DNA of 28,670 bases from positions 7,141-35,810 of the IMG/VR virus record IMGVR_UViG_3300003410_000020. One strand, 5' to 3'. A model generated the notes under the pieces. The model did not search any database and was not told the DNA's origin. It worked only from the letters and a program-made list of their open reading frames with translations. Every line of letters starts with the position of its first letter. Positions within the stretch are counted from its first letter, which is position 1. Both the position numbers and the translations under genes were made by a program. Source of the DNA: a virus. Shown here piece after piece: positions 1 through 24,677 of this stretch.

Positions 1-635
1 ATGTTTCAGATCTTGGAAATGGAATTTTGGTTTATCACAATGTTCTTAAGCCAAGTCTTAATATCATTGATAGGCTAGAAGAGGTTGTATCAAATCCAGA
101 AAACCCATATAGCTATGCTGAAGCTATGGTTGGGTACGGAATGAAAATGCCAGAGTATCGAGATTGTCTAGACTTGAAGTTTAAAAAAACAGATATTCAA
201 GACGATGAGTCCCCCGCGTCACTAAAACTACAGTCTTTGTGGGAAGATGTACATTTTGCTAAACTGCAGGCAGTTAAAGACTACACAAAAAGGTTTAATG
301 TTGGTGAGCTTAGATACTGGGAAGCGTTAAACTTTGTAAAATATGGACCTGGACAGCACTTCCAGGAACACACAGACCATGGATTTTCTTATAACTGTGT
401 TGTGTCTTTAGTTGGATACGTGAATGATGATTATGATGGTGGTGAGATATTTTTTAGAGCACAGGGTTTAAAGATTAAGCCAAAGGCTGGAGATCTTTTT
501 GTTTTTCCTTCTAACTTTATGTATCCTCACAGAGCCATGCCAGTACATGGTGGCACCAAGTACTCTATTGTAACAATGCTAGATTATTCAAAAAAGTATC
601 ACGATCAAAGCTTTTATGAAGAAAGCGGAGAGTAG
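1..635 (+). CDS. Prolyl-4-hydroxylase-like 2OG-Fe(II) oxygenase, 5' end outside the window
   Basis: A non-haem iron dioxygenase of the prolyl-4-hydroxylase alpha-subunit class (P4Hc / 2OG-FeII_Oxy type). The frame (codons starting at base 3) is open to the window edge and already reads as protein (DLGNGILVYHNVL). The TTG at 27 is therefore probably not the start and the gene is 5'-truncated here. Counting from that TTG, the metal ligands are H115-T-D117 and H168. K178 is the basic residue expected to bind the 2-oxoglutarate C5 carboxylate, so this copy uses Lys as in collagen P4H where most neighbours use Arg. The family signatures NDDYDGGEIFF and KPKAGDLFVFPS are present. It is the first of ten such genes. 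The substrate is not shown by the sequence. Confidence 0.9.
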   Translation, partial: VSDLGNGILVYHNVLKPSLNIIDRLEEVVSNPENPYSYAEAMVGYGMKMPEYRDCLDLKFKKTDIQDDESPASLKLQSLWEDVHFAKLQAVKDYTKRFNVGELRYWEALNFVKYGPGQHFQEHTDHGFSYNCVVSLVGYVNDDYDGGEIFFRAQGLKIKPKAGDLFVFPSNFMYPHRAMPVHGGTKYSIVTMLDYSKKYHDQSFYEESGE

Positions 636-638
636 CTG

Positions 639-1361
639 TTGTCAAAAGTTAACGTTTATACTGGAGGAGAGTATGCAAAATTAGACCAGCTCCCCTTGCA
701 AAGAGACTGGATGGACATCACCTTTGATAGACACGCCTATCAGTGCTTTCCTGTTTCTTTGTCTAACAGGATTGGATGGGGGGTTTCTTACCCAGAAGAC
801 ATTGCTTTTGTTTGGGACGGGGTCAATGACAGCACAGCAGATCATGTTAAGATTTTATCTGGAGAAAAGTATTTGCATACTGGTAGAGGTAATCGCACTA
901 TCAGCTTTAACACAGACCTAACCTTTTACCTAGAAAGTGGAGAAGACTGGTCTATATTGACAATGCCAGCACCCAATTACTTTATTCGTGGAGCGCAGTG
1001 TATTACCACAGTTATTAGCCCTACAGCTTTGCAGGGAGAGATTCCAATAGCCTGGATGATTACAGAGCCAAACGTTGAAATTACTATTCCTGCTGGCACA
1101 CCGATTGCTTCTTTAGTTCCAATTTCCCTTTCTGAAATACAGAATTATCCTGTTTCTGTTAAAAACGGCAAGCCTCCTTACGAAGACGATAGCTGGAACG
1201 AAAAAATGAGGGCACGCGGAGACAAGAGTCAAGAGTTAAATATGTCTGGAAAGTGGACACATTTTTATAGAGATGCTGTAGACCACTTAGGAAACGCTAT
1301 GGGCGGACATGAAGCCAAAAAAATAGTAATGAAGGTAGATTATGAGTTCGAACAAGATTAA
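639..1361 (+). CDS. DUF6065-like protein of unknown function
   Basis: A 240-residue soluble protein starting at TTG 639, three bases after the previous stop. GGAG at 627-630 is a plausible ribosome binding site. The first half contains HAYQCFPVSLSNRIGWG followed by a Pro-Asp-Ile strand and WDG. The second half has IPAGTPIASLVPISL. From memory this resembles the DUF6065 family, which has no known activity. It is related to the next gene: both share a C-x-P-V...G-x-G...P-x-D-[IL]-x-F core and a GTP-[IF]-x(3)-[IV]-V-P strand. The pattern of short beta strands suggests a jelly-roll or cupin-like fold, but no metal-binding HxD/HxH motif is visible. It lies inside the oxygenase operon and probably works in the same process. 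Confidence 0.8.
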   Translation: MSKVNVYTGGEYAKLDQLPLQRDWMDITFDRHAYQCFPVSLSNRIGWGVSYPEDIAFVWDGVNDSTADHVKILSGEKYLHTGRGNRTISFNTDLTFYLESGEDWSILTMPAPNYFIRGAQCITTVISPTALQGEIPIAWMITEPNVEITIPAGTPIASLVPISLSEIQNYPVSVKNGKPPYEDDSWNEKMRARGDKSQELNMSGKWTHFYRDAVDHLGNAMGGHEAKKIVMKVDYEFEQD

Positions 1362-2076
1362 GTTTATTGCCGACTCTTATGCGGTGGATCCCAAAGACAA
1401 TGCAACAGATCCAGGGCCAATTGTAAAGACTATCCCTGAGTGGTATAAGCAAGCAGATAGGTACTATAAAGATCCTTCTGGTGAAAACTATAAAGACCAG
1501 GATGGCAACAATATCCACAGCTGGAAGTCTTGCCCAGTAGTGTATGACGGCATGGGGACTGGATATGCCTTTAAGACACCCTGCGACTTAGTTTTTACTA
1601 GAGATGACAAAGGTATCCCTCACGTACAGATTGCAGATGAAAGATTCCCAAACTTTGTACAGGAAAGACCTCCGATGCCAGGCTTCCGCGTCCCCTGGGG
1701 CTATGATCAATTTCATTTTGCGTGGTATGGAGAGTGGGCGGTAGAGTTGCCAAAGGGCTATAGCGCACTTTACATACAGCCTATGAACAGGTATGAGCTA
1801 CCTTTTGAAACAACTAGTGGAATTATTGATAGTGATACCGTCAATTTGTTTGGCACGGTTCCATTTTTTATTGCTAAAGATTTTTCTGGGGTATTGCCCA
1901 AAGGCACACCATTTTTGCAAATAGTCCCATTTAAAAGAGAAAACTGGAAGTCCTCTTACGAGTACCCAGATCATATGAAAATTTATAATGACAATATGGC
2001 CAATATTGAAAAATATCGCACCCCTAAAGGTGGCGTATATCTTAATAGTGTTTGGGAAAGAAGAAAGTACGAATAG
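1342..2076 (+). CDS. DUF6065-like protein of unknown function, relative of the upstream gene
   Basis: A 244-residue protein whose ATG overlaps the end of the preceding gene by 20 bases, suggesting translational coupling. AAGGT at 1334-1338 may serve as a weak ribosome binding site. The N-terminus (IVKTIPEWYKQADRYY) resembles proteins found beside phage oxygenases. The core has KSCPVVYDGMGTGYAF, then PCDLVFTRDD, YSALYIQPMNRYELPF and LPKGTPFLQIVPF. These line up with the neighbour's CFPV, PEDIAFVWD and IPAGTPIASLVPI. It appears to be a beta-rich single-domain protein with no signal peptide or membrane segment. No catalytic motif was recognised. The pair may be ancient paralogues. Confidence 0.8.
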   Translation: MSSNKIKFIADSYAVDPKDNATDPGPIVKTIPEWYKQADRYYKDPSGENYKDQDGNNIHSWKSCPVVYDGMGTGYAFKTPCDLVFTRDDKGIPHVQIADERFPNFVQERPPMPGFRVPWGYDQFHFAWYGEWAVELPKGYSALYIQPMNRYELPFETTSGIIDSDTVNLFGTVPFFIAKDFSGVLPKGTPFLQIVPFKRENWKSSYEYPDHMKIYNDNMANIEKYRTPKGGVYLNSVWERRKYE

Positions 2077-2085
2077 GCTCTGTGG

Positions 2086-2091
2086 TAATAT
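2086..2091 (+). promoter_or_regulatory. -10 box of a leaderless promoter (TAATAT)
   Basis: TAATAT is followed by six bases (AGTAAT) and then the ATG at 2098. There is no Shine-Dalgarno, so transcription would begin at or next to the start codon. No convincing -35 was seen. It belongs to the recurrent -10/ATG arrangement in this window. Confidence 0.5.
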
Positions 2092-2097
2092 AGTAAT

Positions 2098-2820
2098 ATG
2101 AACAAAAAGTATAACATTAATCCAAATGATGGCAAAGAGCTGTTTGAGCATGAGTTTTACCAAGGGGCAGACCCCAAGTCTATTACCCCCTCTGGGTATT
2201 TTGGATCGTCAAAAGATAATATTGTAGAGGTAGAAAACTTTTTAACTCCATCAGAGATTATATACTTGTCAAACTTTATGAAGAGTAATAAAAGCTGGGA
2301 CTATACGGAAAGCCGTTGGGATGAAGACGGCACAATGATATACGATGCATCATATTGGGAAAATCGTGTAGCCACCTGGAACACCCTTGAAAAAGCAAAT
2401 CCAGACGTCCTGATGGTTATTGCAAATGCAATATTAAGAATGAAGCCTGTAGTTGAAAAATTTTTTAATGTAACTGCTTTCCCGACTAAGCCTGCTCTTG
2501 TAAGGTGGACTCCTGGTACTTTTCAGATTCCCCACGCAGATAAAGAGCTGCACGTAGGTGATGATGCTGGAAAACCTAACGCCTTCCCCTGGTACGATTT
2601 AGCAGGATTGTTTTATCTTAATGATGAGTATGAGGGAGGAGAGCTGTTCTTCCCAAATCAAGGTGTTCAGTTTAAGCCAAAGGTTGGCGCCGCTTACTTC
2701 TTCCCAGGAGACATGAACTATATTCATGGAATCACAGAGATCACCTCTGGAGAAAGATACACCGTTCCATTTTTCTGGACAATAACAAAGCTAGGAGAGT
2801 TTGATGCCAAGTATAGTTAG
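2098..2820 (+). CDS. Prolyl-4-hydroxylase-like 2OG-Fe(II) oxygenase
   Basis: A 240-residue single-domain oxygenase. The variable N-terminal part is helical, and NIVEVENFLTPSE (residues 41-53) is the usual entry to the P4H domain. Metal ligands are H146-A-D148 and H210. R220, ten residues after the distal His, should bind 2-oxoglutarate. LNDEYEGGELFFP and KPKVGAAYFFPG are the double-stranded beta-helix strands. The ending HGITEITSGERY is shared with the genes at 4640, 6246 and 8277, so these form a subgroup. It starts at ATG 2098, directly after a -10 box, probably as a leaderless message. The stop overlaps the next gene's start region. All key residues are intact, so an active enzyme is expected. 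The substrate is unknown. Confidence 0.92.
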   Translation: MNKKYNINPNDGKELFEHEFYQGADPKSITPSGYFGSSKDNIVEVENFLTPSEIIYLSNFMKSNKSWDYTESRWDEDGTMIYDASYWENRVATWNTLEKANPDVLMVIANAILRMKPVVEKFFNVTAFPTKPALVRWTPGTFQIPHADKELHVGDDAGKPNAFPWYDLAGLFYLNDEYEGGELFFPNQGVQFKPKVGAAYFFPGDMNYIHGITEITSGERYTVPFFWTITKLGEFDAKYS

Positions 2821-3751
2821 GGGTGGAGATGGCTGGGGTCAGAATGCTGTATCTCCAGATGTCCTAGACAAAGTTGAGTTTAAAGAGTTTTATCCCAAAA
2901 TTCATATTTACAAAAACCTTTTGCCAAGTGCAGACAGGCTGGTAGAGATTTTAAAAGAGTCTGGACAAGACAGGGCAGCCTCATATTACTTCAACATGTG
3001 GGATAAGTGGCACGTGTTTGGTGAAACTATTGGCGGAGTTAATTTTAATCCGATTTACCCAGAGCTAGTTGACGAAGAAAAGAAGGCTGCAGAAGAGGTT
3101 ATCGTAAGAGAAATAGAAGCTGCCTTTGCAAAAGCTACTCAACACTACATGCGTCATTATGGAGTTGTCAAGGGCGACGACTGGACTACAATGGGGCCAT
3201 CGATTTGTAAGTACGATTCAGAACTGGAGCACTGCGGAATTGATTACTTAAGTATGAAATACCACACAGATTATGATTACATTCGGGGAGATGAGCCAGG
3301 AGATAAGTTTGCAATCACTTGTACAATGTATCTTAATGATAGCTATGAGGGTGGAGAGATGTGGTTTGCTTTAGGGCATCAGCAAGATTCTTTTGGAGAG
3401 GAGCCACTGCCTGACGAAGATATTAACATCTACAAGCCAGCTGCTGGCGATATTTTAGTGTTTCCCTCGGGGCACCCAGATGTTCTCTCAGAAGACAGCA
3501 CATACTTTCATGGTGTAAGTAGAACGTGGAAGTCTGAAGAAAAGACAGACAACAAGTATTTTATCCGCTCATATTACTTAATCCCATTTGAGGGCACACC
3601 AGAGTGGCTAGAGGGCCAAGAGAAGTACGGAGAAGACGCCTGGGAGCGTATGGAGACCGAAAGAATCAAGGCCCGTGTAAAGACACACCAAGAGTTGCAG
3701 ATTTTAAAGACAAGGACTGCCGCTAGCGATAAAGAGTGTGGAATGTACTGA
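2804..3751 (+). CDS. Long 2OG-Fe(II) oxygenase (P4H-like), first of a paralogue pair
   Basis: A 315-residue oxygenase. I chose ATG 2804 over the in-frame TTG at 2801 because AGGAGAG at 2793-2799 sits at good spacing. It overlaps the end of the previous gene by 17 bases. Metal ligands are H154-T-D156 and H236, an 82-residue gap compared with 53-68 in the compact copies, caused by an acidic insertion after the GGEMWF strand. K251 (or R255) is the likely 2-oxoglutarate contact. It matches the next gene throughout: CTMYLND-[SD]-Y-[ED]-GGEM, FPSG-x-PD, YFH-x-V, and a C-terminal EG...YGE-[DE]-x-W tail. The pair is therefore a tandem duplication. The substrate is unknown. Confidence 0.9.
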   Translation: MPSIVRGGDGWGQNAVSPDVLDKVEFKEFYPKIHIYKNLLPSADRLVEILKESGQDRAASYYFNMWDKWHVFGETIGGVNFNPIYPELVDEEKKAAEEVIVREIEAAFAKATQHYMRHYGVVKGDDWTTMGPSICKYDSELEHCGIDYLSMKYHTDYDYIRGDEPGDKFAITCTMYLNDSYEGGEMWFALGHQQDSFGEEPLPDEDINIYKPAAGDILVFPSGHPDVLSEDSTYFHGVSRTWKSEEKTDNKYFIRSYYLIPFEGTPEWLEGQEKYGEDAWERMETERIKARVKTHQELQILKTRTAASDKECGMY

Positions 3752-4671
3752 TGGATAGCAAAATTGAATTTTACGATATTCCTGGAGCCCCCTTGGCTAG
3801 GGTGTATACAAATCTTTTGCCCAACGTTTCAAAGCTTATGGATCTTTTAAAAGACTCAGAAAAAAATCCAGGTAAATATTCTAGGTTTAAGGATTGGCAA
3901 GTTTGGAACGATCTTGGCACAATGGTTCCAGCTGGGATCCCTCCGGAATTTTCTTTACTAGATGCCTATGGCGACGGAAAAGATTTTTTTGCAAAAACTG
4001 AAAAAAACCTGGAAACAGAGCTTCTTTTTGAGGTTTATAAAGCATACTATTTAAGTGTAGAGCATTATATGCAAGATAAAAACATTCCAAAAAACATAAA
4101 GACTCATCCAGACGGACCATCTTTTTATAAGTACGATCACACCTTGCCAGCACCAACACCTAATACCCCAGAGTATAACATGAACTATCATACAGATTTT
4201 GCATTTTCTTTAAAAAACAATCCAGGGAAAAAGTCTATAGTCACTTGCACAATGTACTTAAACGATGACTATGATGGAGGAGAGATGGTCTTTAATTTAG
4301 AGCCAAGACTTTCTAGGCCCTACTACAAAAGGTCGGAACAGTTTTCTGAAGACGAGACTTATATTTCCGGTAGAGTTGTTTACAGGCCAAAAGCTGGGGA
4401 TGTTGTTGTTTTCCCTTCAGGCAATCCAGACTACCTATCTGATGATGGTTTTTATTTTCACTGTGTAAATAGGGTAACTAATGGAGATAAATATTTCTTA
4501 AGCATCTTTAATTCTTACATTTATGAAGGATCAAAAGAATATCAGGAAGGCTTAGAAGAGTATGGAGAAGAGCTATGGACTTGGCTAGAAAAAAAACGGA
4601 CCTATAATGCAGGATTCAAGAAGAAGGCGGTATCACTAGATGACCCAGGCAGAGAACTCCCAAGTACCTAA
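3751..4671 (+). CDS. Long 2OG-Fe(II) oxygenase (P4H-like), second of the pair
   Basis: A 306-residue paralogue of the gene before it. ATG 3751 overlaps the upstream TGA by one base (TGATG), a re-initiation arrangement with little Shine-Dalgarno. The in-frame GTG at 3736 is less likely. Metal ligands are H147-T-D149 and H237, with K247 ten residues later as the 2-oxoglutarate contact. The 90-residue gap between the ligand blocks again reflects an inserted arm after GGEMVFNL. The C-terminal region (EGSKEYQEGLEEYGEELW) is shared only with its partner and may be a distinct interaction element. It is soluble, without a signal peptide. The function beyond hydroxylation is not evident. Confidence 0.9.
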   Translation: MDSKIEFYDIPGAPLARVYTNLLPNVSKLMDLLKDSEKNPGKYSRFKDWQVWNDLGTMVPAGIPPEFSLLDAYGDGKDFFAKTEKNLETELLFEVYKAYYLSVEHYMQDKNIPKNIKTHPDGPSFYKYDHTLPAPTPNTPEYNMNYHTDFAFSLKNNPGKKSIVTCTMYLNDDYDGGEMVFNLEPRLSRPYYKRSEQFSEDETYISGRVVYRPKAGDVVVFPSGNPDYLSDDGFYFHCVNRVTNGDKYFLSIFNSYIYEGSKEYQEGLEEYGEELWTWLEKKRTYNAGFKKKAVSLDDPGRELPST

Positions 4672-5278
4672 GCTTGACCCAGCATCTTTTATCTTTTTTA
4701 AAGATGAGCAAATTCTAGATGGGAAAGGTCAGCTAGGAGTTGATCGCAACAGGATTGTAGAAGTGCCCAGCTTCGTTTCAGAAGAGATGGCCACTAGAAT
4801 GGTTGACTATTTCAAAGAGGAAGACAGGTGGGGAGAGACTGCGTTTAATGGATCTCACGGTGCACCAGTTCAAGCTGGGCTAGTTAGCCCTAGCCAGTTT
4901 GGTTTGGCAGATACTGTATTCATGGACGTTAACTCAAAGCTAGAGGAAGCTGTTACCGCAGTATACGGTAAGACAGTTACTCCATCATCAATCCATGCAC
5001 AAAAGTGGGACGTAGGCTCTTCTGCAAACCCCCATTCTGACAACTCAGATTTTGACGGGAATCCAACCAAAGGGTTTGATAATTTAAAGTATGTTGGCAT
5101 CCTGTATCTTAATAGTGACTATGAGGGGGGAGACCTTTACTTCCCAGAACATAAAATTTCTATTCATCCAAACTCTGGATCTATGTATATATTTAGTGGA
5201 GGGGTAGAAAATATTCACGGTGTAACAGAAATTACCTCTGGTACTAGGTACTCAATTGTTTCTTTTTGGAATTTTTAG
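4640..5278 (+). CDS. Prolyl-4-hydroxylase-like 2OG-Fe(II) oxygenase
   Basis: A 212-residue compact oxygenase overlapping the previous gene by 32 bases. The purine-rich AAGAAGGCGG at 4621-4630 is the probable ribosome binding site for ATG 4640. Metal ligands are H132-S-D134 and H193, with R203 as the 2-oxoglutarate contact. GILYLNSDYEGGDLYFPEH and HGVTEITSGTRYSIVSFW are textbook P4H-domain strands. It is closest in pattern to the gene at 6246: both have PHSDxS, YEGGxxYFP and a C-terminal FW. The protein stops right after the last core strand, so it is a minimal catalytic domain with an 80-residue N-terminal lead. Confidence 0.92.
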   Translation: MTQAENSQVPKLDPASFIFFKDEQILDGKGQLGVDRNRIVEVPSFVSEEMATRMVDYFKEEDRWGETAFNGSHGAPVQAGLVSPSQFGLADTVFMDVNSKLEEAVTAVYGKTVTPSSIHAQKWDVGSSANPHSDNSDFDGNPTKGFDNLKYVGILYLNSDYEGGDLYFPEHKISIHPNSGSMYIFSGGVENIHGVTEITSGTRYSIVSFWNF

Positions 5279-5285
5279 GAGAAAT

Positions 5286-6221
5286 ATGGAAATCAATGTT
5301 GTAAATGTATCCGGTAACGCTAATGATTATTTACAAGAAATATCAGATATTTATAAAGAGTTCGGGATAGTTGTAATTCGCGGATTAAGCTTTGATAAAG
5401 ACAGGCAAGAGTACAACAAAATTTATCCAAACAACCAACACCATTATGACGTAGCCACTACTGCAAGTGAACAGTTTGATCTAGTGAAAAAGCTAGGAGA
5501 TATTCTTGGGTGGAGTCCTAACAGCGAAGTTGATTCTTGGGATGATATCATTGTTGAAAATCATTCAAGAATGGATTTGTCTGGCTTCTCGTCAGAAGAC
5601 ATAATAATCTGCTGGCACCTGGAGCACGTTGATTACGACATGTATGACCCACTGTTGGCCTCAGTTTGGACTATGTGGCACTGCGATTTAGATAAGGATG
5701 GAAAAGCTGGAAACACTTGGTTTGTCGATTCCGAGATGGTGTATAAAGAATTAAGCAAAAAAGATCAGCAGTTTTTGTCTAAATGCTTTTTGCAATGGTA
5801 CGACATAGATGGCTCCGGACCCCACCAAGCAAAAGCAGTAGTTCCTCACTGGCTTACAAACAATAACATAATTAGGATAGAGCTTACTCCAGGCTTAGAC
5901 TTAGAACTACTTGAATTTGATGGAAGGTCACCAACAAACCAGGAGGCTCAAGAGTTTAAAATAGTTTTTTCTAAGGTTATGAACATTATTGAAAATAATA
6001 AAAAAATAAGACTAGTTCACCGTTGGCAAAAAGATGACATCGTCATTCCAGATTTACAGAGAATGGCTCACACTGTTACTGGTGGGTTTAGTTCAAAAGA
6101 TAGAATCTTTACCAACTTTTTTACTTACCTTAAAGATCCTAGAAAGCTAAAAGAAGAAGAAAAGCCACTAATTTGGAGAAAAGATTGGACAGAAAAAGTT
6201 TTTGGTAATCAAAATCTTTGA
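5286..6221 (+). CDS. TauD/TfdA-like (clavaminate synthase-type) 2OG-Fe(II) dioxygenase
   Basis: A 311-residue protein of a different 2OG-dioxygenase branch from its neighbours. ATG 5286 is preceded by AGGAG at 5277-5281 overlapping the upstream stop, so upstream in-frame codons are not needed. IYKEFGIVVIRGL (residues 22-34) is the N-terminal TauD-family strand. The proximal ligands are H111-L-E113, a Glu as in clavaminate synthase rather than the usual Asp. HRWQKDDIVIPDLQRMAH carries the distal H262, and R273 is the likely 2-oxoglutarate contact. The strand pair W-H-x-E...LASVWTMWH supports the fold. This family acts on free amino acids, small acids or carrier-bound amino acids, so it may not share a substrate with the P4H-like set. 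Confidence 0.82.
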   Translation: MEINVVNVSGNANDYLQEISDIYKEFGIVVIRGLSFDKDRQEYNKIYPNNQHHYDVATTASEQFDLVKKLGDILGWSPNSEVDSWDDIIVENHSRMDLSGFSSEDIIICWHLEHVDYDMYDPLLASVWTMWHCDLDKDGKAGNTWFVDSEMVYKELSKKDQQFLSKCFLQWYDIDGSGPHQAKAVVPHWLTNNNIIRIELTPGLDLELLEFDGRSPTNQEAQEFKIVFSKVMNIIENNKKIRLVHRWQKDDIVIPDLQRMAHTVTGGFSSKDRIFTNFFTYLKDPRKLKEEEKPLIWRKDWTEKVFGNQNL

Positions 6222-6227
6222 TATACT
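6222..6227 (+). promoter_or_regulatory. -10 box (TATACT) upstream of the oxygenase at 6246
   Basis: TATACT begins directly after the upstream TGA. Here a short leader follows, with GAAAGG at 6235-6240 five bases before ATG 6246, so this gene would have a conventional ribosome binding site. No clear -35. Confidence 0.45.
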
Positions 6228-6245
6228 TGTATCTGAAAGGTATTT

Positions 6246-6953
6246 ATGAAAACAGTTTATCACCACCCGCAGATTGCCGAGATCAAAGGCTTTTTTGATG
6301 AGCAGTATTGTCTAGACGTCATTGAATTTATGGACGGCAATGATGACGATGGCGATAACTGGAACCCTATTTGCTTCCCCAGCGTCCTAGGTGTTAATGT
6401 AGGTGAGCCTAAGGCCACAGATAAAATTTCTGTTGAAGACATGGGCAAGATTAGAGACAAGATGCACCTTGCCGTTCAAGAGGTCATGAATAAGGCCGTT
6501 AAGAACGTAACTATGAGTGGCCACAAATACCCTAAAGGATCCTATGCAGCCCCTCACTCTGACAGCTCAGAGCTTGATGGAACCCCCAACGCATGGCAAA
6601 TGAACAAATATGCATGCATTCTTTATCTTAACGCAAATTATGAAGGTGGAGCAATCTACTTCCCACAGCACGATCTAGACGTACATCCAGAAGCTGGAAG
6701 CCTTCTAGTGTTCGAGGGCAGCCACGATTTTCTTCACGGAGTAAGAGAGATTACTGACGGAGATAGGTTTACTATCCTTGCATTCTGGGATGATGCAGAT
6801 GCCATATATGACAAAGAGTTTTTGGATGAAAAGGTAGAGCTTCAAAGAACAGCCTTGGACTACGTAGAATCAAGCCATGACTACGGAGAGTATAACGGAA
6901 GAACTTTTGGGAAACAAAAGCCAGAAGACCTTTACTCAATTCTCAAGGACTAG
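6246..6953 (+). CDS. Prolyl-4-hydroxylase-like 2OG-Fe(II) oxygenase
   Basis: A 235-residue oxygenase with a very short N-terminal lead: the P4H entry strand starts at residue 9. It also has a C-terminal extension of about 50 residues that its relatives lack. Metal ligands are H104-S-D106 and H164, with R174 as the 2-oxoglutarate contact. CILYLNANYEGGAIYFPQHD and HGVREITDGDRFTILAFW are the core strands. ATG 6246 follows GAAAGG with five-base spacing. Its 3' end runs into a convergent gene: the last 11 bases overlap the minus-strand oxygenase, leaving no room for a terminator. The extension (residues 183-235) is charged and possibly a protein-interaction tail. Confidence 0.92.
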   Translation: MKTVYHHPQIAEIKGFFDEQYCLDVIEFMDGNDDDGDNWNPICFPSVLGVNVGEPKATDKISVEDMGKIRDKMHLAVQEVMNKAVKNVTMSGHKYPKGSYAAPHSDSSELDGTPNAWQMNKYACILYLNANYEGGAIYFPQHDLDVHPEAGSLLVFEGSHDFLHGVREITDGDRFTILAFWDDADAIYDKEFLDEKVELQRTALDYVESSHDYGEYNGRTFGKQKPEDLYSILKD

Positions 6954-7599
6954 ATCGATTACCCTCAGCATTAGATATATGTCTAACAAAAGTAGGCAGT
7001 GCGTATCTCTGGGGTCCGTCCCCAGGAGCATTTACCCCGTGTTTGTACTGTTCGCCATCTGGGAAAATTATAATAGAGTTCGCTGGTGGCTTAACTTTTA
7101 AGTCAATATTGGGAAAAAACAACTCTCCATTAGAGTAGTCATCATTTAAATATCCAATAACTGCGTATAGAATCTCTGGGTCGCCATCACTATCGATGTG
7201 AGCTTTTAATTCAGATCCAGAGTATTGCCTTTGTATTGTGTCAATCCAGCCATACCATAAATCTTTATTGAAATCAAAAAGTTTTGAAATTCTTTTATTT
7301 AGACTCTCCGTGTATTCCCTAGGTATTTGTATTGCCTTATCGCTCCAGTCATAGGTATATTCCATAAGTCCTTCTGCAATTAGATTTTCAATATCTACTC
7401 TTCCATACTTCCTTCTTGCAAGCTCCACCTGACTGTCTTTATAATCTTTTTCCCAATCTTCCTGTGTCGCTTTTTCTATAATTTCCCACAGGGGGTCGGT
7501 ATCAGATTTTTCAAGAAAGTCATAAATTAAAATAATTCCATCGTAAATTTCCAGGTAGCTATAGCCTAAGCTTTCAACATGTTCGGCTATTTCTTTCAT
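6943..7599 (-). CDS. 2OG-Fe(II) oxygenase (P4H-like), second gene of a minus-strand paralogue pair
   Basis: A 218-residue oxygenase. Its ATG overlaps the TGA of the upstream minus-strand gene (ATGA at 7599-7596), so the two are translationally coupled. Metal ligands are H134-I-D136 and H187, with R198 as the 2-oxoglutarate contact. The sequence before the ligands, TIQRQYSGSELKAH, is a substrate-side signature shared only with its partner. The shared block KYGR-x-DIENL at residues 65-73 marks the duplication. YLNDDYSNGELFFPN has Ser-Asn where the others have Glu/Asp-Gly. The last 11 bases overlap the converging gene on the plus strand. Confidence 0.92.
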   Translation of the reverse strand: MKEIAEHVESLGYSYLEIYDGIILIYDFLEKSDTDPLWEIIEKATQEDWEKDYKDSQVELARRKYGRVDIENLIAEGLMEYTYDWSDKAIQIPREYTESLNKRISKLFDFNKDLWYGWIDTIQRQYSGSELKAHIDSDGDPEILYAVIGYLNDDYSNGELFFPNIDLKVKPPANSIIIFPDGEQYKHGVNAPGDGPQRYALPTFVRHISNAEGNRSSP

Positions 7600-8231
7600 G
7601 CCGACCCTGCCTTTCTTACAAAGGATGGGAGAACATACCTAAGCGGCCCTTCTCCAGGAGCCTTTACTCCATGTAGATAGTCCTCGCCACTGGGGAAGAT
7701 AATTAACGACCTTGCTGCAGGCTTAATCTCAATACCTAGATTAGAAAAGAATAGCTCCCCTTCAGTGTAGTCATCATTGACATACATAATTACGGCATAT
7801 TCTATTAGTGGGTCGGCATGGTTATCAACATGCTCAGTAAGCTGTGCTCCAGAATACTGTCTCTGGATTGTCCCAGCACCATCGAATATAAGATTTTTAT
7901 CAAAACTAAAGATCTTTTGAATTCTTGCACTAAGTGTTTCAGATGTTTCAAAGTTTAATCCAAGGTTTTTATCAACCCAGTGATAAGTAATTTCTATTAG
8001 CTCTTCTTCCAGCAGATTTTCTATGTCTCTTCTTCCATACTTTCTTTCAGCAAGATCAGCAACACCATCCATATAATGCTTTTCCCAATCCTTTTCACTA
8101 GACTCCCCTATTTGATTCATTACAGAGATAACTTCTGAGTCATTCAAAAAATTATTTACTAAGAAAATGTTTTTTTCAATTTTATCAAAGCTGTACCCCA
8201 AACTGAGCAAAGATTTTTCTAAAGCATTCAT
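7596..8231 (-). CDS. 2OG-Fe(II) oxygenase (P4H-like), first gene of the minus-strand pair
   Basis: A 211-residue oxygenase aligned with its downstream partner over the whole length and with identical residue numbering. H134-V-D136 and H187 bind iron, and R198 binds 2-oxoglutarate. Shared signatures are LGYS at the N-terminus, KYGRRDIENL, TIQRQYSGAQL, YVNDDY-x-x-GELFF, and HGV-x-APG-x-GP-x-RY near the end. The last replaces the EITSG motif of the plus-strand genes, so these two probably recognise something different. Start ATG 8231-8229 lies seven bases after TATTAT on the minus strand with no Shine-Dalgarno, implying a leaderless message. Confidence 0.92.
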   Translation of the reverse strand: MNALEKSLLSLGYSFDKIEKNIFLVNNFLNDSEVISVMNQIGESSEKDWEKHYMDGVADLAERKYGRRDIENLLEEELIEITYHWVDKNLGLNFETSETLSARIQKIFSFDKNLIFDGAGTIQRQYSGAQLTEHVDNHADPLIEYAVIMYVNDDYTEGELFFSNLGIEIKPAARSLIIFPSGEDYLHGVKAPGEGPLRYVLPSFVRKAGSA

Positions 8232-8238
8232 ATATAAG

Positions 8239-8244
8239 ATAATA
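8239..8244 (-). promoter_or_regulatory. -10 box of a leaderless minus-strand promoter (TATTAT)
   Basis: On the minus strand TATTAT is followed by seven bases (CTTATAT) and the ATG at 8231. It is the divergent partner of the -10 box at 8264 within a 45-base gap between start codons. Confidence 0.6.
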
Positions 8245-8263
8245 CCATACTCTTATTTAGTGA

Positions 8264-8269
8264 TATAAT
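8264..8269 (+). promoter_or_regulatory. -10 box of a leaderless promoter (TATAAT)
   Basis: A perfect TATAAT is followed by seven bases (GTTCCCT) and ATG 8277. An earlier in-frame ATG at 8268 overlaps the box and cannot be the start if this promoter is used. No Shine-Dalgarno. Confidence 0.65.
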
Positions 8270-8276
8270 GTTCCCT

Positions 8277-8867
8277 ATGACTGTAAAGATTATTGAAAAC
8301 TTTATTGAGCCAGAAGTTTGCAGATATATCGTTAATCACTCTAAATGCTTTTTAAGCGATGAAAACGGAAAGCCAGGGTACTTTGAGGACAACTATCCAA
8401 GGCAGGCTATATCAAAAGATCAAAAAGACTTTTCCACAGACCCTAGGGTAAGCACCACGGAAGAGGGATGGGCGGACAGGCTAATCTCTGACTGCCTTTA
8501 CAAAGCGCAGAAATACCTAGAAGATTTTTATAGTTTAAAATCTTTGGACAACTATGAGGGAAGCCTTGTAAAGCTTACTCAAGGTGCTCAAAATGGCCTT
8601 CATTCAGACATGTTTCAGATAGATGGGTCCAAGTGGGACGATGGAAGCGGAAGAGAAGACGAAAAGCCGTATTCGGCACTTTTGTATTTGTCAAGCTATG
8701 AAAAAGATTTTTTCGGTGGTGAAATTATTTTTCCTCAGCATGACCTTACAGTTTATCCAAAAGCCGGAGACTTTATTTTTTTTATTGGAGACTTAGAACA
8801 TTTGCATAAAGTAAATGAAATTACTTCCGGAGAAAGATATGCAATAATTATGTTTTTTGGAGAATGA
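8277..8867 (+). CDS. 2OG-Fe(II) oxygenase (P4H-like), first of a paralogue pair
   Basis: A 196-residue oxygenase. I place the start at ATG 8277 because the in-frame ATG at 8268 lies inside the -10 box and because MTVKIIENFI then matches the MPVEIIENFI start of its paralogue. Metal ligands are H109-S-D111 and H177, with R187 as the 2-oxoglutarate contact. Between them is SALLYLSS-Y-EKDFFGGEIIFPQHD, where the usual acidic-Gly-Gly loop is replaced by EKDFFGG. HKVNEITSGERYAIIMFF ends the domain. The N-terminal domain carries an aromatic/Pro loop (PGYFEDNYPRQ) that is also found in the paralogue. The first residues are not a signal peptide. Confidence 0.92.
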   Translation: MTVKIIENFIEPEVCRYIVNHSKCFLSDENGKPGYFEDNYPRQAISKDQKDFSTDPRVSTTEEGWADRLISDCLYKAQKYLEDFYSLKSLDNYEGSLVKLTQGAQNGLHSDMFQIDGSKWDDGSGREDEKPYSALLYLSSYEKDFFGGEIIFPQHDLTVYPKAGDFIFFIGDLEHLHKVNEITSGERYAIIMFFGE

Positions 8868-9448
8868 TGCCTGTAGAAATTATTGAAAACTTTATTGATA
8901 AAAATGAGGCTAAATTTGTTATAAAACACTTTGATAAAAACCTTGTTGCCATTTCAGATAGGCCTGGGTTCTATGAAGATCTAAATTACAGAACCCCACA
9001 GCCATTCGATGAAAACTTATTAGATAGCCACAATTTTTTTGAAACCAAGGAAGAGCTAATAGCCTCATCTATAATTAATTCATTTATTTACAAAACAAAG
9101 AAAAAAATAGAGTCTTTTTATAACGAAAACTTTGAACATTTTGTCGGTGGTATGACAAAATTATTGCCTGGGGCAGAACAGGATCTCCATGCAGACATGT
9201 GTAATCTAGATGGCACAGAAATAAAAAATGATAAAAAAGCTAAAGTATTAAAATATTCTGCTCTACTATACTTGTCTTCAACAGAAAAAGATTTTTCTGG
9301 AGGACATCTAGAGTTTCCTAAACAAGAACTTGTAGTCAAGCCAAAAACTGGAAAGCTTGTTTTTTTTAAAGGCGATGAGAATCACCCCCACAGCGTTAGC
9401 GAAATATTTTCTGGCAAAAGGTATGCCATTGTTATGTTTTTTGGCTAG
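8867..9448 (+). CDS. 2OG-Fe(II) oxygenase (P4H-like), second of the pair
   Basis: A 193-residue paralogue of the preceding gene. ATG 8867 forms TGATG with the upstream stop and has GGAG at 8859-8862. ATG 8864 is also in frame but too close to that site, and alignment with the paralogue favours 8867. Metal ligands are H108-A-D110 and H175, with R185 as the 2-oxoglutarate contact. SALLYLSS-T-EKDFSGGHLEFP repeats the pair's modified loop. It is more Lys- and Asn-rich than its partner. Its stop TAG shares the palindrome CTAG (9445-9448) with the stop of the converging glycosyltransferase. Confidence 0.92.
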   Translation: MPVEIIENFIDKNEAKFVIKHFDKNLVAISDRPGFYEDLNYRTPQPFDENLLDSHNFFETKEELIASSIINSFIYKTKKKIESFYNENFEHFVGGMTKLLPGAEQDLHADMCNLDGTEIKNDKKAKVLKYSALLYLSSTEKDFSGGHLEFPKQELVVKPKTGKLVFFKGDENHPHSVSEIFSGKRYAIVMFFG

Positions 9449-10305
9449 TCCCTAGGCCAAAAACTATTTTCAGCCTGATCATATTGATGCTTAGGAGATC
9501 CTTCTTCCCATTGGAGCAGATCATTCTTGATGAGTCTTACTAATTCGATGGCTTCTTCAGAATGGCCCTCTGGTAAAATAGTCCAAGAACCTGCATAATG
9601 TATAAAGTACGAATTGTATTTTGATTCGTTCAGGCAATCATCCATATAAAAAACTCTATTAAATTTATAAGATAAGTCATACATGTTTATTTTTTTGTTC
9701 ACTATGTTCCAGTTAATTAAAGTTTGTTCGTAAAAGTAATCATCATAAAGCTTTTCTGGAGGCAGGAGAAGATCTTCCTGACCCCTTGAGATTAAAAATA
9801 GTCCACCATTGTAATATTTTTTGTTCCACTTAACATATTCTAAGTTAAACAATTCCGCCCAATGCCTCATGTTTTCTTCTCGGTCCTGTAAAGTAAAATT
9901 AGATTCATTTACCATCCCAACCTTGTCTTCTGGAACAATTTTAAAAATATTTGGAGAGTCATTCCTTATAATTATGTCTGTGTCTATATATAAAACTCTT
10001 TTATAGTACTTTAATAATTCGACCACATTAAGCTTGTTGTAAGAGCCAAAAGCCGGAGCAATAGTAGTGTTTTGTCTCATCGACTTGATTTCTTTAGCAA
10101 AGGTTTCAGAGCGAACGGATGGTCGGTTAGAAGCAATTTTGTGCGAGGTTTCTAAACCTGGGTTGACGTGATACTGTCTCCCGTCATAAACAATAAAGTC
10201 TGCCCCACAGCTTTGTGCGTACCTTTCTTGTGTGGGATGGCAATGCTTGGCAATGTTTTCATGCCTTTTTCCAATTAGCGTTGTTACCACTGCTAAATCT
10301 TTCAT
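9445..10305 (-). CDS. GT8-like (GT-A fold) glycosyltransferase
   Basis: A 286-residue soluble enzyme expected to transfer a sugar from a nucleotide donor. It opens with a beta strand (LAVVTTLIG). The metal- and donor-binding D108-T-D110 sits in KRVLYIDTDIIIRND. YYNGGLFLIS (N166-G167-G168) and EQTLINW (E193) are acceptor-side signatures. H236-Y-A-G239 is the C-terminal His-x-x-Gly of retaining GT8-type enzymes. GT34-like or another GT-A family is the alternative. ATG 10305-10303 lies seven bases after a minus-strand TATTAT, without a Shine-Dalgarno. It sits between the hydroxylases and the adhesin-like genes, so the acceptor could be a hydroxylated protein or a surface glycan. The acceptor is inferred only. 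Confidence 0.8.
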   Translation of the reverse strand: MKDLAVVTTLIGKRHENIAKHCHPTQERYAQSCGADFIVYDGRQYHVNPGLETSHKIASNRPSVRSETFAKEIKSMRQNTTIAPAFGSYNKLNVVELLKYYKRVLYIDTDIIIRNDSPNIFKIVPEDKVGMVNESNFTLQDREENMRHWAELFNLEYVKWNKKYYNGGLFLISRGQEDLLLPPEKLYDDYFYEQTLINWNIVNKKINMYDLSYKFNRVFYMDDCLNESKYNSYFIHYAGSWTILPEGHSEEAIELVRLIKNDLLQWEEGSPKHQYDQAENSFWPRD

Positions 10306-10346: not shown

Positions 10347-11678
10347 ATGGTGCAACAGCTAAGATACCGTGGAATTGCCGATGCCTATAGGGCTATCGAG
10401 GCTACTGGCGGTGTTGTTGTACAAGCTATGATTGATAATGTTCTTCATAATGTGCATTATTTTAGTAATACTGGAAGTAATACATTTTCAGTGCTTTTCC
10501 CAGGATCCAAAGACAGGGTGGTAAAATATCTTGTTATTGGTGGTGGTGGTTCTGGTGGAGATGCAGATAATGAAACGGAAGCTGGCTCAGGTGGCGGTGC
10601 AGGTGGCTACAGGGAGGGCGAGATACAGCTCTCTTCGGCTGTTGACATTGCTGTGTCCGTCGGTGCGGGAGGAGTTGCGTCAACAGGCGCTGGCTGCGAC
10701 GTAGGAAATAATGGCCAAGCATCATCTATTAGCTCGGTAGATTTGTCTTTGAATATTTCTGCTGCAGGCGGTGGCGGTGGCGGAAATGGCCAGGGCGGCG
10801 CTGGTAGAGACGGCGGGTCTGGTGGCGGTTCTGGCCGTAGAACCTCTACGGTTGGTTTAGGTAACGTTCCAGCAACAACCCCTCCACAGGGACACGATGG
10901 CTTTCAGGGTTCTGGCAATATTGGTGGTGGTGGCGGTGGATCTGCATTAGCCTCAACTGGACAGGCTGGTGGTGCTGGAGAAGAGTCTTCTATTTCTGGA
11001 ATTTTATCAACATACGCAATTGGCGGTAGCGGTGGAAATTACTCCGCTTATGGCTTCTCTCCAGCAGAATTTGGCTCTGGCGGCGGCGGTGGCGGGGCTG
11101 CTCAAGAAGGGGGCGGCCACCCAACACAAAGAATGAATCGTGGATTTAGTGGGCAGAACGGCGTTGTTATTTTTTCTTATCCCGTTGCACCATCAGAAGG
11201 TTTTGAAAGTCCTGGAGTGCCAAGCAAGCCAGGAAAGCCAACTGCTGTCGCTAATGTACTTTATGATACTGTAAAATGGTCAGCAGTTAACGATAACGGA
11301 TCTCCAATTATTGAATATGAATGGGAATCTAGCGACGGAAAAAGCGGTACGACTACATCTCTTGGCGTAACTCTTACTCAAGAGGGCGGAACCGCACAGT
11401 CATACAGGGTTAGGGCTCGCAACGCTGTTGGGTATGGGGAATGGTCTGACTACTCCAGCTCAGTTACAACCATTTCTCCATTCTTCCCATTTTTTCCATT
11501 TTTCCCCCATTTTCCCCCACACTTTCCACCCCACTTCCCCCCATTCTTTCCACACTTCCCACCACATTTTCCACCTCATTTCCCACCATGGTTCCCTTTC
11601 TTCCCAAGGTTCCCTAGATTCTCTTATCGACACAGATTTGACAATGTAGAGTCTGACGAATCGAATGATGAAGAATGA
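10347..11678 (+). CDS. Glycine-rich, fibronectin-III tail adhesin-like protein with Phe-Pro-Pro-His repeat tail
   Basis: A 443-residue virion-type protein. Residues 58-275 form a glycine-rich domain (YLVIGGGGSGG, poly-Gly runs at 141-165, 193-198 and 243-250, closing with NGVVIFSYP), as in phage tail-fibre and receptor-binding proteins. Residues 290-376 are a fibronectin type III domain (GKPTAV...VKWSAV...SYRVRARNAVGYGEWSD). Residues 378-425 are a 48-residue tract made of Phe, Pro, His and a few Trp/Arg, with six HFPP units. An acidic tail, VESDESNDEE, follows. It overlaps the next gene by four bases (ATGA). It is probably an exposed tail or host-contact protein. The proline tract is the best visible candidate substrate for the prolyl hydroxylases upstream, which is an inference. 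Confidence 0.8.
   Translation: MVQQLRYRGIADAYRAIEATGGVVVQAMIDNVLHNVHYFSNTGSNTFSVLFPGSKDRVVKYLVIGGGGSGGDADNETEAGSGGGAGGYREGEIQLSSAVDIAVSVGAGGVASTGAGCDVGNNGQASSISSVDLSLNISAAGGGGGGNGQGGAGRDGGSGGGSGRRTSTVGLGNVPATTPPQGHDGFQGSGNIGGGGGGSALASTGQAGGAGEESSISGILSTYAIGGSGGNYSAYGFSPAEFGSGGGGGGAAQEGGGHPTQRMNRGFSGQNGVVIFSYPVAPSEGFESPGVPSKPGKPTAVANVLYDTVKWSAVNDNGSPIIEYEWESSDGKSGTTTSLGVTLTQEGGTAQSYRVRARNAVGYGEWSDYSSSVTTISPFFPFFPFFPHFPPHFPPHFPPFFPHFPPHFPPHFPPWFPFFPRFPRFSYRHRFDNVESDESNDEE
11478..11621 (+). repeat. HFPP / FFP short-period coding repeat
   Basis: This encodes residues 378-425 of the glycine-rich protein: 20 Pro, 19 Phe, 6 His, 2 Arg and 1 Trp. Six exact HFPP units occur in two blocks of three, flanked by FFP units. 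At DNA level it is a strongly pyrimidine-biased tract (TTTCCACCC-like 12-base units) that could vary in copy number by slippage. Confidence 0.85.
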
Positions 11679-23555: not shown

Positions 23556-23597
23556 ACAAAGCCCAGGGGAAACACTCTCCTGGGCTTTGTTGTTTTG
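23556..23597 (+). terminator. Rho-independent terminator after the tail tube gene
   Basis: A 12-bp perfect stem, ACAAAGCCCAGG / CCTGGGCTTTGT, with an 11-base loop is followed by TGTTTTG. The T-run is short, but the stem is long and GC-rich in the middle. The next -10 box starts nine bases after the stem. Confidence 0.85.
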
Positions 23598-23598
23598 C

Positions 23599-23604
23599 TA
23601 TACT
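23599..23604 (+). promoter_or_regulatory. -10 box of a leaderless promoter (TATACT)
   Basis: TATACT is followed by six bases (TGTTGG) and ATG 23611, with no Shine-Dalgarno. The in-frame TTG at 23587 lies in the terminator stem and is rejected as a start. Confidence 0.6.
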
Positions 23605-23610
23605 TGTTGG

Positions 23611-24309
23611 ATGGCTACTAAGGTTTATGATTCGGGGTATGTGAATCTTGTCGATGGTACAGACGTATACCTAAGACCCTTAAAGATAAAATACTTAAGA
23701 GACTTTATGACAGCTTTTGACTTGCTAAAAGTTTCTAAAAGCGAAGAGGACTCTATCAATATTCTTTCATATTGTGCCCTGATAGCATTAAGATCTCAGT
23801 ACCCCGTAATACAGACAACTGAGCAGTTTGAGGATCAGGTAGACCTTCCCAACGTGTACAAAATTCTTGATATCTGTGCTGGCATTAAAATTAATGAGTC
23901 ATCAGAAGAAGATGTTAAAAAGCAGGCAGAAGATAGCAAGTCAAGCACCTGGGATGATTTAGATCTTGCAGAGCTAGAGTCAGAGCTTTTTCTTTTAGGT
24001 ATCTGGAAAGACTATGAAGAGCTTGAAACGTCTCTATCAATGCCAGAGCTTGTTGCTACTCTTTCTTCTAAAAGAGATTTAGACTATCAAGAAAAAAAGT
24101 TTTTAGCAGCAATCCAGGGCGTAGATCTAGACAAGCAGTCTGGTGGAGCTAAGGGCCAGAACGAATGGGAAGCCATGAAGGCCAGGGTGTTTAGCAAGGG
24201 CAAGACAAGCGATCCTAATGACATCACTTCTTTCCAAGGAACAAAAGCATCTCAGGCTGGATTTGGCCTAGGCATGGGTCTTGGATACGAAGATCTTACC
24301 AAAAAATAA
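23611..24309 (+). CDS. Tail assembly chaperone-like protein, long form
   Basis: A 232-residue protein placed between the tail tube and tape measure genes, where tail chaperones (lambda G/GT) are found. These coat the tape measure and recruit tube subunits. Residues 1-95 are clearly paralogous to the next gene: LVDGT-x-V-x-LRPLKI-x-x-LR-x-FM and DLP-x-VY-x-I-x(5)-G-[IV]-K. Residues 100-232 are an extra charged domain. It includes an acidic helix (WDDLDLAELESELFLLG) and a C-terminal Gly-rich end (GFGLGMGLGYEDLTKK), comparable to the T part of GT. Because the extension is already in frame, no frameshift is needed. ATG 23611 fits a leaderless start. Confidence 0.75.
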   Translation: MATKVYDSGYVNLVDGTDVYLRPLKIKYLRDFMTAFDLLKVSKSEEDSINILSYCALIALRSQYPVIQTTEQFEDQVDLPNVYKILDICAGIKINESSEEDVKKQAEDSKSSTWDDLDLAELESELFLLGIWKDYEELETSLSMPELVATLSSKRDLDYQEKKFLAAIQGVDLDKQSGGAKGQNEWEAMKARVFSKGKTSDPNDITSFQGTKASQAGFGLGMGLGYEDLTKK

Positions 24310-24365: not shown

Positions 24366-24677
24366 ATGGCTACTGTAAATAAAGAGAAGGAACTAACTCT
24401 CATCGACGGAACAAAGATCAAGGTGCGTCCCCTCAAGATTTCACTTCTTCGTCCGTTCATGAAAAAGTTCGAGGGTATTGCTGATGTAGCAAATGACAAC
24501 GACAAGTCTATGAACCTACTTATGGAGTGTGTACAAATTGCTATGAAGCAGTACAATCCTGAGTTGGCCGAAGACGTCAAGACTCTGGAAGAAAACATTG
24601 ATCTTCCAACTGTCTACCAAATTGTCGAGGAGGCTTCTGGCGTAAAGCTCGGAGAAGTCACCAACCTGATGAACTAG
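24366..24677 (+). CDS. Tail assembly chaperone-like protein, short form
   Basis: A 103-residue protein equivalent to the N-terminal domain of the preceding gene. LIDGTKIKVRPLKISLLRPFM and IDLPTVYQIVEEASGVKL match it in order and spacing. It corresponds in size to the G product of lambda-type tails, the more abundant frameless form, while the preceding gene corresponds to GT. No slippery heptamer was found near its stop. It has its own promoter-like box and ribosome binding site, so the ratio of the two forms could be set by transcription and translation start rather than by frameshifting. The tape measure gene follows 21 bases later. Confidence 0.78.
   Translation: MATVNKEKELTLIDGTKIKVRPLKISLLRPFMKKFEGIADVANDNDKSMNLLMECVQIAMKQYNPELAEDVKTLEENIDLPTVYQIVEEASGVKLGEVTNLMN

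Follow-up and report, generated by a model that had tools for sequence, protein, structure and literature searches.

What do prolyl-hydroxylase-like enzymes act on when a single phage carries a whole row of them? Few kinds of unexplained gene are as common in marine and freshwater phages as 2OG-Fe(II) oxygenases, and these usually carry a metabolic label. The window analyzed here, a stretch of 28,670 nucleotides from the IMG/VR virus record IMGVR_UViG_3300003410_000020 (positions 7,141 to 35,810), opens with such a row, which the initial annotation regarded as a dedicated modification system, not a stray metabolic gene. We consider it probable that the phage uses the array to hydroxylate proteins of its own virion fibres, a substrate predicted from gene order and co-occurrence.

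Composition and fold of the oxygenase array

A profile search identified ten separate ORFs scoring above the PF13640 gathering score (>27 bits) within positions 1-9448, the same number as initially annotated. The first of them, g1, begins left of the window edge, and an eleventh member above the same score lies on the same record, ~80 bases before the left edge of the window (Table 1). In an alignment of all eleven sequences, the His and Asp of the HxD motif, the distal His and the Lys/Arg occupy invariant columns (11/11), as had been noted for the ten window genes, and the earlier figure of 53 to 90 residues between the HxD motif and the distal His is matched exactly. The additional TauD-like gene is also borne out by its Pfam match, while D1 and D2 are no oxygenases by sequence, though inside the array span. 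The eleven genes resolve into five tandem paralogue pairs and one singleton, an arrangement compatible with the earlier suggestion that subgroups have different targets. Among homologues from related loci that align through all four catalytic positions, 558 of 565 keep the full catalytic set, and g0 to g3 are under purifying selection, with a dN/dS of ~0.04-0.05 against their closest relatives at a dS near or at saturation.

Table 1. Features of the oxygenase array and its flanks (window coordinates; those marked L009 lie left of the window)
Feature	Position	Strand	Description	Evidence
REP1	L009 5442-6251		Repeat protein left of window	Tail nearly identical to REP2 tail
Eleventh array gene	L009 6310-7059		2OG-Fe(II) oxygenase	PF13640
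g1	3..635	+	2OG-Fe(II) oxygenase, predicted prolyl-hydroxylase fold, core member	PF13640 E 2e-14; N-terminus left of window
D1	639..1361	+	DUF6065 protein, core partner	PF19541 E 8e-22
D2	1342..2076	+	phrog_7084-like protein, superfamily of DUF6065	phrog_7084 E 2e-34; joined to DUF6065 by iterative search
g2	2098..2820	+	2OG-Fe(II) oxygenase, core member	PF13640; motif common to alignment A3 (by eye)
g3	2801..3751	+	2OG-Fe(II) oxygenase	PF13640; HTD...H, spacing 82
g4	3736..4671	+	2OG-Fe(II) oxygenase, g3 paralogue (35% identity)	PF13640; HTD...H, spacing 90
g5	4640..5278	+	2OG-Fe(II) oxygenase	PF13640; catalytic columns
TauD-like	5256..6221	+	2OG oxygenase	PF02668 E 9e-11
g6	6246..6953	+	2OG-Fe(II) oxygenase	PF13640
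g7	6943..7599	-	2OG-Fe(II) oxygenase, g8 paralogue (50% identity)	PF13640
g8	7596..8231	-	2OG-Fe(II) oxygenase	PF13640
g9	8268..8867	+	2OG-Fe(II) oxygenase, g10 paralogue (41% identity)	PF13640
g10	8864..9448	+	2OG-Fe(II) oxygenase	PF13640
GT8	9445-10305		Glycosyltransferase between array and REP2	
REP2	10347-11678	+	Glycine-rich, fibronectin-III-like domain, aromatic-proline tail; proposed substrate	PF21722; (HFPP)n tail
REP2 tail	11477-11640	+	Aromatic-proline tail, FFPFFPFFPHFPPHFPPHFPPFFPHFPPHFPPHFPPWFPFFPRFPRF...	Sequence

Structure prediction, suggested earlier as a check, was run on g1 and gave an AF2 model with pLDDT 95.1 and pTM 0.91. The 50 PDB entries that match this model best are prolyl hydroxylases without exception, among them Pseudomonas PPHD with EF-Tu, PHD2, PBCV-1 vCPH, and an algal P4H with a proline-rich peptide. 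The best sequence match of g1 is a Bacillus P4H (E 6e-6); the profile search also matched the lysyl hydroxylase LH3, less strongly. By its double-stranded beta-helix, closest to that of prolyl hydroxylases, and the invariant K/R column, g1, the only member modelled, belongs with the P4H/PHD group; the array oxygenases are of predicted prolyl-hydroxylase fold, demonstrated for g1 only. DNA-base oxidation of the TET/JBP type was rejected, as PF12851 reaches only 18-23 bits against a cut-off of 34.9.

Aromatic-proline repeat proteins on both flanks

On either side of the array lies a gene for a protein with C-terminal (H/F/Y)-F-P-P tandem repeats, REP1 and REP2. The gene upstream of REP1 carries a tropism-determinant domain, and a large protein and the portal are encoded downstream of REP2. 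These flanking repeat proteins indicate that the enzymes are aimed at virion proteins and not at host metabolism. The repeat unit is limited to four residue types, F, H/Y, P and P. Its [FHY]-F-P-P residues are kept while the third bases of the Pro codons differ between 43-56% of neighbouring units, which argues against fresh DNA slippage. The repeat proteins were absent from the initial annotation and are the most informative feature of the locus.

Several other readings of the repeat were discarded. A role at the DNA level finds no strand structure (z 0.24), and the wobble codons vary. A viral substrate of collagen type does not fit the adjacent repeat, which is [HFY]-F-P-P, not Gly-X-Y; one collagen-repeat gene cluster occurred in 11 loci. 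The impression by eye that some repeat tails are followed by a Hint/intein domain was unsupported by Pfam or PDB search. As for an origin in bacterial genomes, the GTDB matches to two HFPP units resemble chance single hits, and the sole such locus with an oxygenase (L259) is on a MAG contig and bears a phage-type repeat gene.

Association of repeat proteins and oxygenases in other phages

Among the matches listed from IMG/VR, whose contigs are partly redundant so that the counts are not independent events, array-type oxygenases occur in 71/93 loci with two HFPP units, in 83/118 FFPP-repeat loci, and in 0/120 loci of a control repeat that was not habitat-matched. PF13640 is found in 39 of 40 large repeat-bearing contigs against 2 of 30 control contigs. 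An oxygenase lies within 5 kb downstream of 67 of 79 repeat genes, on the same strand in 61 of the 67, and within 5 kb upstream of only 3 of 36. Four of the remaining 12 repeat genes, including REP2 of the window, have an upstream one. Conversely, where 2.5 kb or more of DNA is available upstream of a g1-type gene, all 55 loci encode an aromatic-proline tail protein there, 41 by the strict criterion and 14 by a relaxed criterion fixed after inspecting those loci.

The coupling also holds within the window's own lineage (28 contigs), where 6 of 6 repeat-bearing contigs carry 5-10 oxygenases and the array is present in 1 of 22 repeat-less ones (p ~2e-5), the lone exception ending where the repeat gene should lie. 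This within-lineage comparison partly answers the lack of habitat matching in the control repeat. The core set of repeat protein, g1-type and g2-type oxygenases and DUF6065 protein occurs in at least two lineages diverged by portal, in the second of which relatives of g2 adjoin the repeat protein. A T4-like portal query had no match in repeat contigs, and the same query matched nothing anywhere. Scattered acquisition without synteny, which the initial annotation had named as one finding that would overturn its proposal, was looked for; on hundreds of contigs from aquatic phages, homologous arrays instead keep their synteny, and this strong conservation supports a dedicated modification system.

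Partner genes vary in their constancy. Members of the DUF6065/phrog_7084 superfamily are present in 107/190 repeat-protein loci, one of them fused to a 2OG domain (L402), TauD-like genes in 41/190, and the GT8 family in 2/190. A fold search with D1 gave weak dUTPase-like matches only (best E 2e-3), and DUF6065 had no solved homologue in the structure-database search.

Comparison with known systems

Among solved structures, the Bacillus and Pseudomonas prolyl hydroxylases (3itq/5hv0; 4iw3) come nearest to g1 in sequence and fold. Their substrates are collagen-like peptides or, according to the structure title of 4iw3, EF-Tu, as opposed to xFPP repeats. PBCV-1 vCPH (PDB 5c5t) is a virus-encoded prolyl 4-hydroxylase sharing the fold of g1, and its report also described viral proteins containing 4-hydroxyproline (Eriksson 1999, via PMC9301287). 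PBCV-1 is, however, a eukaryotic virus, whereas here up to 11 paralogues are located in a structural-gene operon by a F/H-F-P-P repeat protein, with DUF6065.

The T4-like cyanophage Synechococcus phage S-SCSM1 has 24 2OG-Fe(II) oxygenase genes (PMC9602691), many of them PF13640, with clusters of four and three flanking two tail-fibre genes. T4-like cyanophage oxygenases differ in their low protein identity (best 32% over 79% of g1) and have had no previously proposed substrate; DUF6065 and the repeat protein had no match in the phage collection searched. The Phold paper describes phage 2OG oxygenases that resemble human EGLN3, with a prolyl-hydroxylase-like fold and conserved iron ligands, as widespread in marine phages (PMC12774648), and the passages found in it mention no repeat-protein linkage, gene context or substrate. 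Among cultured phages, the window's portal (~47%) and capsid (42%) are closest to those of Streptomyces BE-type phages (Yaboi, Stanwilliamsviridae), although the annotation of the genes surrounding the portal of Yaboi names no oxygenase array. The hosts of the window's lineage are probably actinobacteria. Neither a cultured phage nor a publication with the repeat-protein/oxygenase system came up in our searches.

Proposed function and alternatives

Array and repeat protein are coupled in their presence and absence, with a conserved order and intact catalytic residues. The substrates would be the tandem (H/F/Y)-F-P-P tails of the fibre-type proteins REP1 and REP2 on either side of the array, and the core would have been enlarged by tandem duplication in the window's lineage to eleven PF13640 enzymes and a TauD-like one. 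We infer that the enzymes hydroxylate the repeat prolines, possibly other residues too, before assembly, to the benefit of the phage. Speculatively, hydroxylation could stiffen an extended polyproline-II tail, or else it could keep this strongly hydrophobic tail in solution, or help it adhere when the host is bound.

The published reading of phage 2OG genes is host-directed: the oxygenases would modify host proteins or drain 2-oxoglutarate and so reprogram metabolism, their proximity to fibres coming from a common hypervariable cargo region. The 24 genes of S-SCSM1 are said to reprogram host metabolism (PMC9602691), and phrog_61 is classed as auxiliary metabolic by PHROGs. We regard this as unlikely here, given that three observations would not be expected of a generic cargo region: presence and absence that follow, within a lineage, those of a single specific repeat protein, conserved gene order and strand, and a universal upstream aromatic-proline protein. 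The location of auxiliary metabolic genes should be independent of any particular virion gene, whereas both location and presence of the array are coupled to a virion-type repeat protein.

Two further alternatives accept the tail as the target. Its main chemistry might be oxidation of Phe, Tyr or His by different enzymes of the array, or further modification of prolines that already bear a hydroxyl group, and the product would be an adhesive tail oxidised at many sites, like mussel foot proteins; the large number of subfamilies, which differ in ligand spacing, the restricted residue content of the repeat, and the other peptidyl hydroxylases covered by PF13640, with the LH3 match, would agree with this, yet the best structural matches of g1 include nothing but prolyl hydroxylases, and as the main chemistry it appears improbable. 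Hydroxyprolines could also be sugar attachment points, as in plant hydroxyproline-rich glycoproteins, with the GT8 enzyme encoded between the array and REP2 adding the sugars. The rarity of GT8 in repeat loci led us to reject glycosylation of this kind, which we rate as very improbable.

Within the preferred reading, hydroxylation of the phage's own fibres, some members of the array may target Phe, His or different proteins. A broader version is offered tentatively: the cluster might multiply oxidise the fibre tail (Pro, possibly Phe/His/Tyr) into a rigid or adhesive surface polymer, as a widespread phage post-translational factory. If true, such a polymer would be a type of virion material without known precedent among bacterial viruses.

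The up to 11 prolyl-hydroxylase-like genes in a row, next to genes for virion fibres with long phenylalanine-proline repeat tails, suggest that many uncultured water phages hydroxylate their own fibres. Since the candidate substrate is concrete, recurrent and co-encoded, the role of the oxygenases becomes open to a direct test, namely +16 Da on xFPP peptides. To our knowledge, no phage protein-hydroxylation system has been described before, and this would be the first. If confirmed, it would also provide a new pair of repeat protein and enzyme for making hydroxyproline polymers in bacteria.

The oxygenase array and its flanking repeat proteins

The window comprises bases 7141-35810 of the 35,810-base virus record, and a profile search places ten ORFs above the curated PF13640 score at positions 1-9448 (g1-g10), with an eleventh such oxygenase, g0, in the adjoining DNA. 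The initial annotation described ten intact oxygenases carrying HxD, a distal His and a Lys/Arg; the enzymes are indeed intact, as borne out by the PF13640 matches and by an alignment of all eleven in which four positions never vary: the His and the Asp of HxD, the distal His and a Lys/Arg. The same alignment agrees with the range of 53 to 90 residues given earlier for the HxD-to-distal-His spacing (53, 53, 64, 82, 90, 61, 60, 53, 53, 68, and 67 residues). By identity the enzymes form five paralogue pairs (g0/g1 46%, g3/g4 35%, g5/g6 35%, g7/g8 50%, g9/g10 41%), with g2 unpaired and all other pairwise identities at 17-30%. Ratios of dN/dS against the nearest relatives, rough and with dS close to saturation, are low and thus point to purifying selection.

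Features of the array and its surroundings (L009, the same record including DNA left of the window)
Feature	Sequence	Position	Remarks
REP1	L009	5442-6251	fibronectin III domain; C-terminal tail ...PFFPFFPHFPPHFPPHFPPHFPPHFPPHFPPHFPPHFPPWFPFFPRFPRFSYRHGF
g0	L009	6310-7059	eleventh PF13640 oxygenase; immediately left of window
DUF6065 gene	window	639-1361	interleaved in array
phrog_7084 gene	window	1342-2076	interleaved in array
TauD-like gene	window	5256-6221	interleaved in array
GT8 glycosyltransferase	window	9445-10305	between array and REP2; also L101 1481-2533; 2 of 190 repeat loci
REP2	window	10347-11678	glycine-rich and fibronectin-like domains; C-terminal tail ...PFFPFFPFFPHFPPHFPPHFPPFFPHFPPHFPPHFPPWFPFFPRFPRFSYRHRF
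ORF pair	window	23587-24309, 24366-24677	related ORFs ahead of long last ORF; tail-assembly-chaperone-like; frameshift possible

The C-terminal tails of REP1 and REP2, one protein on each side of the array, are nearly alike, a feature absent from the initial annotation. The position of the prolyl-hydroxylase-like genes, in a row with a proline-repeat protein on either side, prompted the idea that the two are enzyme and substrate, a pairing that we then tested. Over 164 distinct arrays the positions of the repeat unit (xFPP) read F/H/Y, F, P, P, and the third bases of Pro codons differ at 43-56% between adjacent units, which argues for old repeats maintained at the protein level as opposed to fresh DNA slippage. 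An unusual strand fold was looked for in the window repeat and none was found. In some proteins (L022 4616-5935, L055 1571-3337, L036 3-596) the repeat tail leads into a conserved C-terminal domain that opens with WCIHEDTLVRTxRGE and is Hint-like by eye, a resemblance for which database searches gave no support.

Fold and catalytic residues

The AF2 model of g1 (pLDDT 95.1, pTM 0.91) has a prolyl-hydroxylase fold: its best 50 matches in the PDB are all prolyl hydroxylases, including Pseudomonas PPHD with EF-Tu, PHD2, Dictyostelium PHD, PBCV-1 vCPH, algal P4H with (Ser-Pro)5, and collagen P4H-II, and the top profile-sequence matches are Bacillus P4Hs. The HxD/E...H...K/R residues are kept in 558 of 565 homologues from related loci. 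In ORFs of ~430 aa (L022 12095-13402, L018 1-1290, L101 5205-6503) HxH replaces HxD in an aligned C-terminal oxygenase region, perhaps a degenerate second domain. The DUF6065 model is also confident (pLDDT 94.8), with weak, dUTPase-like structure matches.

Association of repeats and oxygenases

IMG/VR was scanned with a degenerate DNA pattern for HFPPHFPP (93 stretches) and with an FFPPx3 pattern (at least 120 stretches), and a profile of the eleven enzymes served as detector of array-type oxygenases. These were present, mostly less than 1.5 kb away, in 71/93 HFPPHFPP stretches and in 83/118 FFPPx3 stretches among the matches listed; the IMG/VR contigs behind these and the following counts are partly redundant. 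For a control proline repeat, (PKPE)2, drawn without habitat matching, the count was 0/120, and for HFPP matches arising by chance in GTDB genomes it was 1/83. PF13640 genes occur in 39 of 40 large repeat contigs, generally 4-11 per contig, versus 2 of 30 control contigs.

The arrangement is polar: where 5 kb or more of downstream DNA is present, 67 of 79 repeat genes have an oxygenase within 5 kb on that side (61 of the 67 on the same strand), whereas on the upstream side only 3 of 36 have one within 5 kb. Synteny is conserved, with tail gene, repeat protein, two oxygenases, DUF6065 and further oxygenases as the recurring order. A phage repeat protein, an oxygenase and DUF6065 share one contig of a Gammaproteobacteria MAG (SP183, PBNR01000074.1; L259), which is probably mis-binned phage.

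In the reverse direction, a g1-type alignment search of IMG/VR returned at least 587 relatives, of which the best 80 loci were kept. Of the newly fetched loci, 55 include 2.5 kb or more of upstream DNA. In that DNA a strict xFPP repeat protein is encoded at 41 loci and an aromatic-proline tail, for example PFFPPFFPFFPSFGPFFPP, at all of the remaining 14; the relaxed criterion covering the latter, set after these 14 loci were inspected and so partly post hoc, gave 0/120 in control loci.

Within the window's own lineage (28 contigs with a portal at least 73% identical and 7 kb or more of DNA upstream of the portal), xFPP repeats occur in six contigs, each of which has 5-10 PF13640 genes. Among the 22 repeat-less contigs, PF13640 genes number zero in eighteen, one or two in three, and six in a single contig, G101; there the first oxygenase starts at base 483, and any upstream repeat gene would fall beyond the contig end. 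This co-occurrence within one lineage (Fisher p = 1.9e-5) means that repeat and array are coupled in gain and loss.

Breadth and relation to known phages

Portal comparison with the window divides the repeat contigs into at least two groups (53-88% identity, or only about 22-26% over a part), and in the second group the repeat protein is followed by g2-like and g1-like oxygenases and DUF6065. The DUF6065/phrog_7084 superfamily is present in 107 and TauD-like genes in 41 of 190 repeat loci. A single ORF (L402 4769-6016) fuses a DUF6065 domain with a 2OG oxygenase domain, linking DUF6065 to the enzymes. Directly downstream of the second-lineage repeat protein there is often a thioredoxin-fold gene (L014 1523-2407 and 40 other loci), whose glutathione peroxidase match is weak and below cut-off. 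A carbamoyltransferase gene lies within one repeat/oxygenase locus (L048 6973-8427), its cluster being found in five loci.

Among cultured phages, Yaboi-type Streptomyces phages are nearest in structural genes (portal 47%), and the annotation of their portal region names no oxygenase array. A search of 50,697 phage records gave distant relatives only for g1, mainly cyanophage, and no relatives for either DUF6065 or a repeat protein of the second lineage. Possibly a parallel case, the cultured cyanophage S-SCSM1 (L502 2894-11916) has two tail-fibre genes flanked by oxygenase clusters of 4 and 3 genes; one of the fibre genes contains a long low-complexity insertion rich in Arg, Pro and Phe (RQPRNFR...). 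Misleading labels (ferrochelatase, DNA endonuclease) are attached to 2OG oxygenases in INPHARED records H2 and H9-H40 and in PHROGs 2297, 3531, and 274. Viral prolyl hydroxylation is already known from PBCV-1 (cited in a passage of PMC9301287), and the portion of the Phold paper (PMC12774648) on EGLN3-like folds in phages names no substrate. Neither the xFPP repeat nor a prior description of the system was found in the literature searched.

Proposed role

Sequence, the g1 model and gene association together suggest that fibre-type proteins are substrates of the array enzymes, with hydroxylation in their xFPP tails. A role at the virion surface is likely, since the gene before REP1 encodes an N-terminal major-tropism-determinant domain and REP2 is located ahead of a large protein and then the portal. 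Speculatively, hydroxylation would stiffen a polyproline-II rod or, alternatively, may make a hydrophobic tail soluble or adhesive. The simplest idea for the presence of eleven enzymes is that their labour would be divided over prolines, residue types or tails.
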